From a candidate division FCPU426 bacterium (GTDB taxonomy: Bacteria > Oederibacteriota > Muellerivitia > Muellerivitales > DAHXKG01), in assembly GCA_027366525.1 (NCBI GenBank), contig DAHXKG010000007.1, positions 1 to 64,000 of the forward strand: a stretch of 64,000 nucleotides of DNA, read 5' to 3'. Position numbers and translations under genes: made by a program. Position 1 is the first letter of the stretch; each line of letters opens with the position of its first letter. Positions 32,653-42,087 of the stretch are shown in pieces. The notes below the pieces were generated by a model. That model saw only the letters and a program-made list of their open reading frames with translations, ran no database searches and was not told the origin of the DNA.

Positions 32653-33114
32653 TTATAACTCTACCACGAGCTTTGCTTCCTTGACATTGTCAAATTCAAA
32701 TTGAATTCGATGCCCATTTGCTAATAGCACTTGGACCTGTTCGGCCTTTCCTCCATCAAGACGTCCCTGATAGGTATATTGCCCATTAATTGGCTGCTTA
32801 AAAACAAATTTGGCCAAGCGCCCTATAAATCGTTCACAATCCTGGACGTGCCTCAATGGACGATCCAGTCCAGGTGAAGTTATTTCCAAAACATAAGGTT
32901 CAGGCATCCAATCCATTTCATCCAACTTTTTCTCTAATTCTCGACTAATCAGAGCGCACTCTTCCAAGCCGACATATCCACTGCGTTTATCTAGCGTAAT
33001 CACGAGTACGGTTTTCCCTTTCAACTTCGTCACGGTAATACCAAAAAGATCCAGAAAATTGTCCTTCACGATCGGTTCAACAATATGTTGAATTCTTTTC
33101 TCTATGGGTTCCAT
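32653..33114 (-). CDS. rimP: Ribosome maturation factor RimP
   Basis: 153 aa from ATG at 33112-33114 (an upstream in-frame extension runs through a hairpin and is not conserved). Family motifs: IVEPIVKDNFLDLFGITVTK, ECALISRELEKKLDEMDWMP and EITSPGLDRPLRHVQDCERF. First gene of the rimP-nusA-infB-rbfA-truB-ribF operon. Confidence 0.95.
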   Translation of the reverse strand: MEPIEKRIQHIVEPIVKDNFLDLFGITVTKLKGKTVLVITLDKRSGYVGLEECALISRELEKKLDEMDWMPEPYVLEITSPGLDRPLRHVQDCERFIGRLAKFVFKQPINGQYTYQGRLDGGKAEQVQVLLANGHRIQFEFDNVKEAKLVVEL

Positions 33115-33141
33115 AAAAACTCCAATCTTGTGTAATTGGAG
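33115..33141 (-). promoter_or_regulatory. Hairpin over the rimP ribosome-binding site
   Basis: On the minus strand CTCCAAT, an 8-nt loop and ATTGGAG form a perfect 7-bp stem whose 3' arm contains the rimP GGAG ribosome-binding site. Five T residues and then the ATG follow at once. It could block translation, act as a pause or attenuator, or both. Confidence 0.5.
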
Positions 33142-33209
33142 CCTGCTCAGAAAAATAAAATTCAATTTTCTTTTTTTATATCCATCTTTAAAGCATGGGC
33201 TCTTAAAAA

Positions 33210-33358: not shown

Positions 33359-36300
33359 TTATTTAAATAATGCTCCTTGATTTGATTCAGGTAATAATTG
33401 CAAACATCCATGGTGCCTTAAGATTTCAACAACCGTTTTATTAATTCCACACCGTACGACTAAATCCTCCACGGATGTAAAATCCCCATAGTTACGTTCT
33501 TCAACAATTTTACTTGCCGCAGTATCACCTAATCCACTTAAAGTAATCAAGGGGGGACGTAGACTTAATGTGTCCGTGTTTTTTTCAATTAAAAATTGAT
33601 GCGTGTCGGATCGATAAAGATCAACCGGCAAAAATTCAAATCCCCGTACCATCATTTCCTGAGCGACTTCTAAAATGGATAATTCTTCCTGTTCTTTAGA
33701 TGTTGGTTTCCCAAGACTCTGCAATGTTTTCAAATGTTCTAAAAAAACATCTTCTTGAGCACAAATTTTGACTGCATTGAATCCCGAGGCTTTATTGGTG
33801 AAATAATCGGCATAAAAAGCTAACGGATAATGCACTTTAAAATATGCAATACGAAAACTCATAATGCAATACGCCACTGCATGTGCTTTCGGAAAGATAT
33901 ATTGGATTTTTCGGCAACTATCAATATACCAATTCGGAATCCCGGCTTTTTGCATAGCCCCTTGCATATCTGGGCTCAAACCTTTCCCCTTTCGAACAGA
34001 CTCCATAATTTTAAAGGCTAATGATTCATCCATTTTTTTGGCCACCAAATCAGTGAGCATATCATCGCGCGTTGAAATAACCGTCGACAAGGTTGCAACT
34101 TTATTTCGAATCAGATCCTGTGCATTGCCCATCCAGACCGAAGTTCCATGCGCTAACCCAGACAAGCGGACCAAGTCTTCAAATTTTCGAGGTTTCGTGT
34201 CCCTTAACATTCCCATAGCAAACCCCGTTCCAAACTCCGGAATTCCTAAAGTCCCTAAATCAAGTTTCATTTTCTTTTTCAACTTCAACGCCACAATTCC
34301 AGAAAAAAGGCTCATGGTCGATGGATCATTTAAGGAAATGGTGACGGGATTCACTCCCGTCATCTTTTGAAGTCGTCTTAAGCTAGTGGGATTATCATGT
34401 CCGAGAATATCCAGTTTCACTAAGCAATCATGCATACTATCGTAATCAAAATGCGTCGTTACTACATCCCCATTTTTGTTGTCGGCTGGATACTGAACTG
34501 GACACACATCCGTAATTTCCAAGTTCTTTGGAAGAATCACAATCCCTCCAGGATGCTGACCGGTAGTTTTAGCAACACCACTACACCCTTTGACCATGCG
34601 GTTCAACTCCGCGGTTCGAACCTGCTTTCCCGTTTCTTCAACATATTTTTTCACAAATCCAAAAGCAATGCGGTCTTTGACTGCTGAAATCGTTCCGGCT
34701 CTAAAGCAATGATCCTTGCCAAATAACTCTTCAACATATTTATGCGCAATATGCTGATATTCCCCTGAAAAATTCAAATCAATATCAGGCATCTTATCCC
34801 CATGAAACCCCATAAACACTTCAAACGCAATCGCAAATCCATCGTGAATCATCGGCTGATTGCAGTGCGGGCAAAATTTTGGAGGCAAATCCACACCCGC
34901 AGTCGATACATAATTTTCAGGAAATTCATGATAATGGCCTTGCGCACATCGCCAATGTGGCGGCAGCGGATTGACTTCCGTAATACCACATAAAAAGGCA
35001 ACCAATGAACTTCCTACACTACCTCGACTTCCGACTAAATATCCATCCTCCAGCGATTTTTGAACTAATTTCATGGCAATGACATACAACGTTGAAAATT
35101 GATTATTAATAATGGCATCCAACTCTTTATGCAACCGTTTTTGGATAAGCTCGGGAAGCGGATACCCATAAAGCTGTTTCGCCCGATCTTCAGCCGCTTT
35201 GCGTAATATCGCATCAGCATTTTCTAAATGCGGGCTGAGGGTTTCTTGAGGCAGTGGTTCAATCGACTCAATTTGATCTGATATTTTTTGAGGATTGGTT
35301 ACCACCAATTCATGGGCAATGGCCTCTCCAAAAAAATCAAAATTCGACTTTAGTTCATCGGTGGTTTTAAAATAAAGCGGAGCTTGACGTTCAACGCCAT
35401 ATCCCATTCCACTATGGAGAATTTTTCGATATACCGCATCTTGGGGATCCAGGAAATGCGAATCGCCGGTAGCCAGCACCATTTTCCCGCGGGATCGAGC
35501 AAACTCGTAAATCTTTTTGGTATTGGCCTGCAGTTCCTCCAGCGTTTTGAAAAATCCTTCATCAATCGTGAACATATTGTTCTCACACGGTTGTAACTCA
35601 ATGTAATCATAAAAATCAAAAATTGGTTCCAGCGCGACGTCGTGTTTCAACCAATGCTGCCAAACTTCGCCTTGTTCACATGCCGAGCCGATAATCAGAC
35701 CCTCTCGATACTGATTTAAAAGAGCCTTGGGAATCAAGGGACGTCGATAAAAATATTTTAAATGGCTCTCTGACACTAATCGATAAAGATTTTTTAACCC
35801 AATTTTATTTTTGACCAATACGATGACATGATAAACGGATAAATTTTTCTCTTTTTTAAATTCATCAACCAGATAGCCTTCCATGCCCAAAATCAATTTA
35901 ATTTTGTGCTGTTTAGCAATCACCCAAGCTTCCGGATAGGCCTGAACTACCCCATGGTCGGTGATCGCAATGGCGCGATGCCCCCATTGAGCGGCCCGGC
36001 TCACCAATTCATCAATTTTAGAAAGTCCATCCATACGACTCATGAGCGTGTGACAGTGGAGCTCGACCCGTTTTTCGACGGCTTGATCGATCCGTTCCGA
36101 AGGATGAACTTGAACAATATTTCGAGCTACTAAGTACAGATCCCCTTCAACGCTTTCCGGTCCGCCCTCTTTTTTATTTCTAAAAATATCCCGTTTTAAA
36201 CTCCCTTCCACTAAAATCCAGTCCTTGACTTTTAAGCCGCCCCGATACGATGTGTGCGCATCCACCCAAAATTTTATTTCGAGCGAGTCGCTATAATCCG

Positions 36301-37084
36301 TTACATTAATTTCGATTTGAGTGCGTGCATTATTATTAAAATCAGGTTTGGAATTAATCGAAAGGATTTCCCCTTGAACCACACATTTCTGATGGGTCTC
36401 ACGAATCGTCTCCATCCGCTCTGGTGAGGCTGTAAACGAGTTACCTAAAATAGTTTTGGGAAACTGAGGGGATAATTCCGGCGCGCGCTCGTCTTGTTTT
36501 TCCTCGGAAAAATCCATTACTTCTTCTGGAATTAAATCGCGAGCCACTTCCAAGGTCACACAAGCGGATTGTCCAATCCGTTGTTTCAGAAATTTTTCAA
36601 AAATTTTAATGCATTGCTTTTTTTCAAATTGCTGTCGGGCTAATTCATGAGGGAGTTTAACGCAAATGGTTTCTTTTTCCCAAGTGAGTTTCGCATGAGA
36701 ACTCCACTCCTCGTTAATATCGGCGGCCATCACCAAACAGGGCATTAAATCATTTTGGTGAATGGCTAAATAATCTTCGGGCGTCACGGTCTGCCCAGGG
36801 TAATGAACATCCCAAATAATACGCTTAATTTGAGTTAATTCGCGCGTCAAATCTTTTGCCAGGCATTGATACGCGTCATTGGAAACTTTGTCGGGCATTA
36901 AAATCGACAGGACTAGAACTTTATTGGGCAATACCAGTTGGACCTTCAAAATTTCCAATTGCAGGAATCGTTCTTTTTCAAAACAACCCAAACTAGATTT
37001 TTCAATCGATTCAAATAGCAAGTTGGGCGAATGAACTTGGGTCGACAACGAAATGCTACCTTCCGATATCCATAAATATTTCAA
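33359..37084 (-). CDS. polC: DNA polymerase III alpha subunit, PolC type, lacking the exonuclease domain
   Basis: 1241 aa. N-terminal region, OB fold (about 232-300), PHP domain starting VELHCHTLMSRMDG (about 338), palm with MPDIDLNFSGEYQ, the motif TLGIPEFGTGF, and a C-terminal helix-hairpin-helix (LSGLGDTAASKIVEE). The order matches Firmicute PolC closely (YLVGSRGSVGSSLVA, KTTGQHPGGIVILP, FPKAHAVAYCIMS), but the DEDDh exonuclease normally nested in the PHP domain is absent: GYLVDEFKKEKNLSVYHVIV joins directly near residue 408. The zinc site reads CAQGH instead of CPEC. It is about 200 aa shorter than Bacillus PolC. The start is TTG with no good ribosome-binding site. Confidence 0.96.
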   Translation of the reverse strand: MKYLWISEGSISLSTQVHSPNLLFESIEKSSLGCFEKERFLQLEILKVQLVLPNKVLVLSILMPDKVSNDAYQCLAKDLTRELTQIKRIIWDVHYPGQTVTPEDYLAIHQNDLMPCLVMAADINEEWSSHAKLTWEKETICVKLPHELARQQFEKKQCIKIFEKFLKQRIGQSACVTLEVARDLIPEEVMDFSEEKQDERAPELSPQFPKTILGNSFTASPERMETIRETHQKCVVQGEILSINSKPDFNNNARTQIEINVTDYSDSLEIKFWVDAHTSYRGGLKVKDWILVEGSLKRDIFRNKKEGGPESVEGDLYLVARNIVQVHPSERIDQAVEKRVELHCHTLMSRMDGLSKIDELVSRAAQWGHRAIAITDHGVVQAYPEAWVIAKQHKIKLILGMEGYLVDEFKKEKNLSVYHVIVLVKNKIGLKNLYRLVSESHLKYFYRRPLIPKALLNQYREGLIIGSACEQGEVWQHWLKHDVALEPIFDFYDYIELQPCENNMFTIDEGFFKTLEELQANTKKIYEFARSRGKMVLATGDSHFLDPQDAVYRKILHSGMGYGVERQAPLYFKTTDELKSNFDFFGEAIAHELVVTNPQKISDQIESIEPLPQETLSPHLENADAILRKAAEDRAKQLYGYPLPELIQKRLHKELDAIINNQFSTLYVIAMKLVQKSLEDGYLVGSRGSVGSSLVAFLCGITEVNPLPPHWRCAQGHYHEFPENYVSTAGVDLPPKFCPHCNQPMIHDGFAIAFEVFMGFHGDKMPDIDLNFSGEYQHIAHKYVEELFGKDHCFRAGTISAVKDRIAFGFVKKYVEETGKQVRTAELNRMVKGCSGVAKTTGQHPGGIVILPKNLEITDVCPVQYPADNKNGDVVTTHFDYDSMHDCLVKLDILGHDNPTSLRRLQKMTGVNPVTISLNDPSTMSLFSGIVALKLKKKMKLDLGTLGIPEFGTGFAMGMLRDTKPRKFEDLVRLSGLAHGTSVWMGNAQDLIRNKVATLSTVISTRDDMLTDLVAKKMDESLAFKIMESVRKGKGLSPDMQGAMQKAGIPNWYIDSCRKIQYIFPKAHAVAYCIMSFRIAYFKVHYPLAFYADYFTNKASGFNAVKICAQEDVFLEHLKTLQSLGKPTSKEQEELSILEVAQEMMVRGFEFLPVDLYRSDTHQFLIEKNTDTLSLRPPLITLSGLGDTAASKIVEERNYGDFTSVEDLVVRCGINKTVVEILRHHGCLQLLPESNQGALFK

Positions 37085-41783: not shown

Positions 41784-42087
41784 TGGTGGGGCGTGCTGGA
41801 TTCGAACCAGCGACCAAGCGATTCTGGTTTGTGTTGCTTTCGCAACTCCCTGGACTATCTCTTCACCCCAATACCAGTGGGTGTGGGATACTTTTAACAC
41901 GGTTATTAAGAGGACTTCACCTCTCCGTTAGTCTCTGCACCTTCTTCCGGTGTACCGAAAGTTTGGCTCAGGATTGCCACCGACTACTTTGGTTTCCCTG
42001 AATTCATCCCAATTCATTCAATAATTTTCACTATTGATGCACAGTTAAAACTATGAGTCGCCTGCTCTACCGCTGAGCTAACGCCCC
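41784..42087 (-). tRNA. tRNA-Ile (CAU) gene split by a group I intron
   Basis: The exons are 42053-42087 and 41784-41823; joined they make a 75-nt tRNA with encoded CCA. The acceptor GGGGCGT pairs perfectly with ACGCCCC. The D arm is GCTC...GAGC, the anticodon stem GGCGA/TCGCT with loop CTCATAA, and the T arm GCTGG-TTCGAAT-CCAGC. The anticodon arm and variable loop (GGCGACTCATAATCGCTTGG) match the bacterial minor tRNA-Ile2 type, whose CAU is modified to lysidine-AU by TilS. A G1-C72 pair excludes initiator tRNA. Elongator Met is less likely but not excluded. The intron sits between positions 36 and 37. Confidence 0.9.
41824..42052 (-). ncRNA. Self-splicing group I intron, IC3-like
   Basis: 229 nt. 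The 5' exon ends in U and the intron ends in G, as required. P1 pairs the exon CAT with intron GTG through a U-G wobble, extended by AGTT/AACT. P2 is CAATA/TATTG. Core signatures nearly identical to the Azoarcus tRNA-Ile intron: GGGAAACC, GAAGGTGCAGAGACTA, GGTGAAGAGATAGTCCAGGG, a P9 stem GTTGC-GAAA-GCAAC, and ACACAAACCAG at the end. P8 is AGAGG/TCCTCT. There is no room for a homing endonuclease. It should splice by two guanosine-initiated transesterifications. Confidence 0.92.

Follow-up and report, generated by a model that had tools for sequence, protein, structure and literature searches.

PolC polymerases are described as occurring in Firmicutes, Fusobacteria, Tenericutes and Thermotogae (PMC4070872). 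In the canonical enzymes of Bacilli (structures 3f2b and 9qpc), a DEDDh exonuclease (Exo) is inserted in a loop of the PHP domain that lines the groove, or path, to the PHP site (PMC5636811), and a PHP ligand is often changed from aspartate to asparagine. The PolC of G. kaustophilus, with one PHP ligand changed, has no PHP exonuclease activity (PMC5636811). Timinskas (2014) described Exo-less PolC, which made up 6% of the PolCs and came from Clostridia and Negativicutes, with a single copy from Thermotogae; in the published systems combining PolC with DnaE1, the PHP site of DnaE1 is conserved (PMC3919608). A functional analogue is M. tuberculosis DnaE1, a polymerase without a DEDDh domain whose complete nine-ligand PHP site holds three zincs and proofreads, an activity abolished by single aspartate changes (PMC5636811). 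Whether the PHP domain alone can proofread in a PolC replisome has long been an open question, given that an Exo is present in the PolCs studied to date and that the PHP of the first one solved is damaged; no report of biochemical PHP exonuclease activity of any PolC was found in the literature searched. According to a generalisation made in 2026, PHP becomes inactivated in Pol III whereas DnaQ does not.

The PolC studied here is encoded in the window, i.e., the whole stretch of 64,000 nucleotides that was analysed, from a genome of the phylum Oederibacteriota. It belongs to the same family as the Exo-less PolCs of Clostridia and Negativicutes (e.g., Moorella, Desulfosporosinus, Selenomonas), with which it shares the absence of Exo from the same PHP loop, intact PHP ligands and a DnaE partner. 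It differs from these in coming from a non-Firmicutes phylum whose checkable PolCs are all Exo-less, and, unlike in the published PolC and DnaE1 systems, the PHP of DnaE is broken in the window's order. With the canonical Bacilli PolC it has in common the OB-PHP-palm-finger-HhH order, the clamp motif and the polC-rimP-nusA gene order, whereas the Exo in the PHP loop and the frequent ligand change set the Bacilli enzymes apart. The activity of M. tuberculosis DnaE1, a member of the DnaE1 family, was measured, while that of the window PolC, from another family, is predicted. Two points are new, namely a phylum of Exo-less PolCs that is not part of Firmicutes and the condition of the remaining proofreaders in the order to which the window belongs: no report of the phylum's PolC, or of a replisome with the PolC PHP as its sole intact site, was found in the open-access literature searched.

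A PolC with a PHP domain continuous through the Exo site

The polC gene spans positions 33359-37084 on the minus strand, as do all features below, and is an open reading frame of 1241 aa with a TTG start, in agreement with a sequence-only reading of this DNA for frame, strand and length. The full-length protein scores 1344.8 bits against the NCBIfam PolC model NF001688 (cut-off 873) and 1221.3 bits against TIGR01405 (cut-off 1043), and a Foldseek search matched it to G. kaustophilus PolC at 40% identity across OB-PHP-palm. Since the PolCs of same-order relatives begin aligning at about residue 18-26, translation may actually begin some 20 codons after the TTG. Residues 1-215 (36440-37084) had zero Pfam matches; by position and length they would correspond to the two-part N-terminal domain of other PolCs, which is poorly conserved (PMC3919608).

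The domains recognised by Pfam are OB, PHP, Pol3-alpha, finger and HHH. The OB fold (residues 235-315; 36140-36382; PF01336 at cut-off and five strands in the AF2 model) precedes the PHP domain, which starts at residue 341 in the Pfam match. The N-terminal half of the latter (residues 339-402; 35879-36070; PF02811) holds ligands H343, H345, D352, H377 and E402, and the C-terminal half (residues 419-560; 35405-35830), delimited by Pfam, ligand conservation and AF2, holds H419, C469, D541 and H543. Between the two lies a junction loop (residues 403-418; 35831-35878), the position of the Exo of about 200 aa in other PolCs, as located by alignment to 9qpc, segment lengths and AF2. The polymerase palm/thumb (residues 626-815; 34640-35209; PF07733) contains the catalytic motif PDIDLNFSG and is followed by the fingers (residues 898-1034; 33983-34393; PF17657) and a helix-hairpin-helix region (residues 1148-1233; 33386-33643; PF14579). 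Direct reading gave a C-terminal beta-clamp-binding-like motif, QGALF (33365-33379), whose counterparts in relatives are QVSLF or QTTLF, with Q1236, L1239 and F1240 invariant.

A rimP-like gene lies directly downstream of polC (32653-33165, by direct reading) and is followed by nusA, an arrangement that matches the polC-rimP-nusA order of Firmicutes and was found in 7 of the 30 phylum loci, mostly in the window's order. Within the window (1-64000), 41 of the 43 listed genes are on the minus strand and the coding strand has an excess of G (skew 0.12), a pattern that PolC genomes with strand bias would be expected to show. At 41787-42080 on the minus strand, between a guaB-like gene and rpoD, lies a group I intron (Rfam RF00028, 69.9 bits), which splits the anticodon loop of an apparent tRNA gene with a CAU anticodon that ARAGORN misses.

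The central claim of the sequence-only reading, a PolC without the nested DEDDh exonuclease, was borne out. Pfam found no RNase_T/DEDDh domain anywhere in the 1241 residues, neither at the usual site nor elsewhere. In the alignment with the PolC of 9qpc (1474 aa), residues 153-408 match chain positions 187-431 and residues 409-1240 match 631-1471, i.e., about 199 residues corresponding to the Exo are absent at 408/409, the junction having been placed near 408 beforehand. An AF2 model of residues 216-720 (pLDDT 85; best match PolC 3f2b) shows a continuous PHP fold, in which strands 396-406 and 418-424 are joined directly without an Exo between them. The segment from E402 to H419 measures 13-40 aa in Exo-less PolCs versus 199-220 aa in complete Exo-bearing PolCs; the loop has 16 residues here, close to the 18 given for Taq (PMC5636811). 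With no Exo at the PHP insertion site, the protein is therefore classed as an Exo-less variant rather than as a canonical PolC.

The PHP motifs HCHT, TDHGVV and GDSHFL had been described as intact, and so they are, together with the other ligands. All nine (HHDHEHCDH) conform to the pattern HHDHEH[C/H]DH of PHP-exonuclease proofreaders and do not vary among the 29 phylum PolCs compared; overall, 47 of the 225 PHP columns are invariant, giving a hypergeometric P of 4e-7 for sequences that are not independent. The ligands are likewise intact in the 33 Exo-less Firmicutes PolCs, a set biased by having been fetched partly with the peptide AITDHGVV, one of whose residues is a ligand. In total, the PHP is kept in 51/51 PolCs without a functional Exo and broken in 8/40 with one, the Firmicutes part of this count carrying the bias of the fetch pattern, and a phylogeny-independent test of Exo loss versus intact PHP, based on 4 independent pairs, gave no support. 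Stability, or a different activity of the PHP domain, could also account for the conservation of intact ligands.

Loss of the Exo versus primitive absence

At least 33 of the 45 phylum genomes carry a PolC, and a 34th (G040) has a PolC fragment at a contig edge; three families (f4, f5 and f12) are without PolC. Every phylum PolC that covers the region is without Exo, and in the 29 that are sufficiently complete for measurement, 17-34 residues separate E402 from H419.

The sequence-only reading considered this form to be either ancestral or secondarily reduced. Had the lineage branched off before the Exo entered the PHP loop, its PolC would be primitively Exo-less, and some trees agree with this. 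When compared with Firmicutes PolCs only, the phylum falls on one side of a branch with full support; a DnaE-rooted tree from a first sampling placed the Exo-less phylum PolCs at the base; and the phylum clade is not rejected in a wider set (AU 0.56). However, once PolCs of other phyla were added, the basal placement was not reproduced and the trees gave no resolved root, and the DnaE outgroup branch, at about 5 changes per site, makes for weak rooting. We consequently regard primitive absence as a rather unlikely explanation, also in view of the PolCs that neighbour those of the phylum.

Those neighbours come from two other phyla, each represented by two genomes (G062/G209 and G176/G313), group near the phylum PolCs in the wider trees and carry an Exo-sized insert at the homologous site from which the DEDDh residues are gone. 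Exo profile scores are 67-75 bits for the first pair (L200 of G062 and L205 of G209) and 7-8 bits for the second (L224/L215 of G176 and L234 of G313), versus 205-320 for an intact Exo. Similar decayed inserts occur in a Christensenellaceae PolC (L112, 60 bits) and in another from Bacillota (L071, 49 bits), and the nine PHP ligands are kept in all six decayed-Exo PolCs. The L112 insert has a predicted DnaQ fold (TM 0.85 to 8h2f), which is expected as the alignment included intact Exo. The G209 gene has one in-frame TAG near codon 644, which could mean that it is a pseudogene, that the assembly is wrong there or that the stop is recoded. The decayed inserts look like intermediates of loss; as exceptions, they contradict the generalisation of 2026.

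Because nearby PolCs of two other phyla carry an Exo devoid of its active site at the same position, secondary loss is favoured over primitive absence. The reduced form is thus the favoured half of the earlier alternative. Phylogenies of PolCs with and without Exo further indicate that the Exo-less proteins are not one clade (AU test p 1e-64, in a set sampled by similarity to the Exo-less query), the Exo state changing at least several times on the tree (11 in one reconstruction).

Other candidate proofreaders

Proofreading had been proposed to come either from a separate DnaQ-like protein or from the PHP domain. The genome that contains the window is a 33-contig draft of 2.02 Mb, 97.5% complete, in which an RNase_T profile search retrieved a single protein, identified by NF003765 (256 bits) as an oligoribonuclease. 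No dnaQ was found with this profile in it or in eight genomes of the same order, which yielded oligoribonucleases only (three of the same-order proteins typed by profile, the others by clear sequence likeness); of the two proposals, a separate DnaQ finds no support in this search and the PHP is the remaining candidate. DnaE is present as a single copy of 1144 aa that resembles E. coli DnaE by its length and match, and its PHP has lost ligands by D to E (HSQFSILES) and H to K (TDK) changes. The PHP is also broken in the DnaE of all eight same-order genomes, with more ligands gone. Pol I (L185, contig C11) has a 3'-5' exo domain in which at least three catalytic residues, Klenow D424, Y497 and D501, are replaced, by L, F and N, respectively. 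The missing dnaQ, the broken PHP of DnaE and the replaced Pol I ligands leave the PolC PHP as the only intact candidate site found on a replicative polymerase or Pol I of this genome, judging by its residues.

In the phylum genomes that lack PolC, the PHP of DnaE is intact, and DnaQ is present as well in two of the three families concerned. Families f4 and f12 encode a standalone DnaQ-type DEDDh protein; that of f12 (L117, L120) resembles the PolC Exo more than other DnaQ models, its best score being to the Exo part of NF001688 (positions 415-611, 193 bits). Family f5 has no DnaQ, but all PHP ligands covered in its DnaE are intact. In each genome examined, therefore, one or more candidate sites are intact. 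Families f8, f11, f15 and f16 have a further DEDDh protein, of the CIDFETAN type.

An unrecognised or highly diverged exonuclease might instead proofread in trans, the PHP of PolC being only structural. Noncanonical proofreaders have been suggested for other bacteria that lack both an active DnaE1 PHP and a canonical DnaQ (PMC12926913), the window's genome encodes other PHP-family proteins, and 2.5% of it may be missing. Still, the oligoribonuclease is alone in answering to the RNase_T profile across nine genomes, and all nine ligands are kept in PolC but lost from the DnaE of the same genomes, which makes such a nuclease distinctly improbable. Even less probable is that there is no proofreading at all, a high error rate being tolerated and mismatch repair relied on: the broken Pol I exo and DnaE PHP, and the presence of MutL, would fit this, but a complete PHP site persists in PolC across deep divergence and the PolC-less genomes of the phylum keep the DnaE PHP, with DnaQ as well in two families out of three. 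Finally, a deletion or mis-assembly that removed the Exo from the window gene, which the sequence-only reading had allowed for and which is suggested by nothing beyond its a priori possibility in a 33-contig draft, is ruled out by the same layout with an intact frame in all checkable phylum PolCs, from genomes of 16 families.

A predicted replisome with PHP proofreading

The explanation that we consider probable is a PolC and DnaE replisome without a detectable DEDDh proofreader, in which the Exo was lost in an ancestor and the PolC PHP proofreads. PolC would be the leading replicative polymerase, its Exo having presumably been dropped from the PHP loop in the ancestor of the phylum's PolC. 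The primer end would fray away from the polymerase site and be hydrolysed at a trinuclear zinc site formed by the nine PHP ligands, as in M. tuberculosis DnaE1; metal binding, DNA cleavage and proofreading by this domain are predictions drawn from that likeness. DnaE, with its broken PHP, would be a non-proofreading partner like the DnaE3 of Bacilli and may act as a primer extender. The PHP domain of PolC is hence most likely the proofreader. A broader reading, to which we give even chances, is that the whole order is left with this single proofreading site, all DEDD-type replicative proofreaders having been lost, and that the PolC Exo repeatedly died and was excised, dead intermediates surviving to this day, contrary to the published view that the DnaQ proofreader of Pol III is never inactivated.

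An Exo-less, PHP-intact PolC also bears on the behaviour of PolC inhibitors and nucleoside analogues. The PolCs with a dead Exo offer an evolutionary path to its loss and correct a recent generalisation. If our explanation is true, these bacteria would represent a natural experiment on a PHP domain that alone proofreads a PolC replisome.
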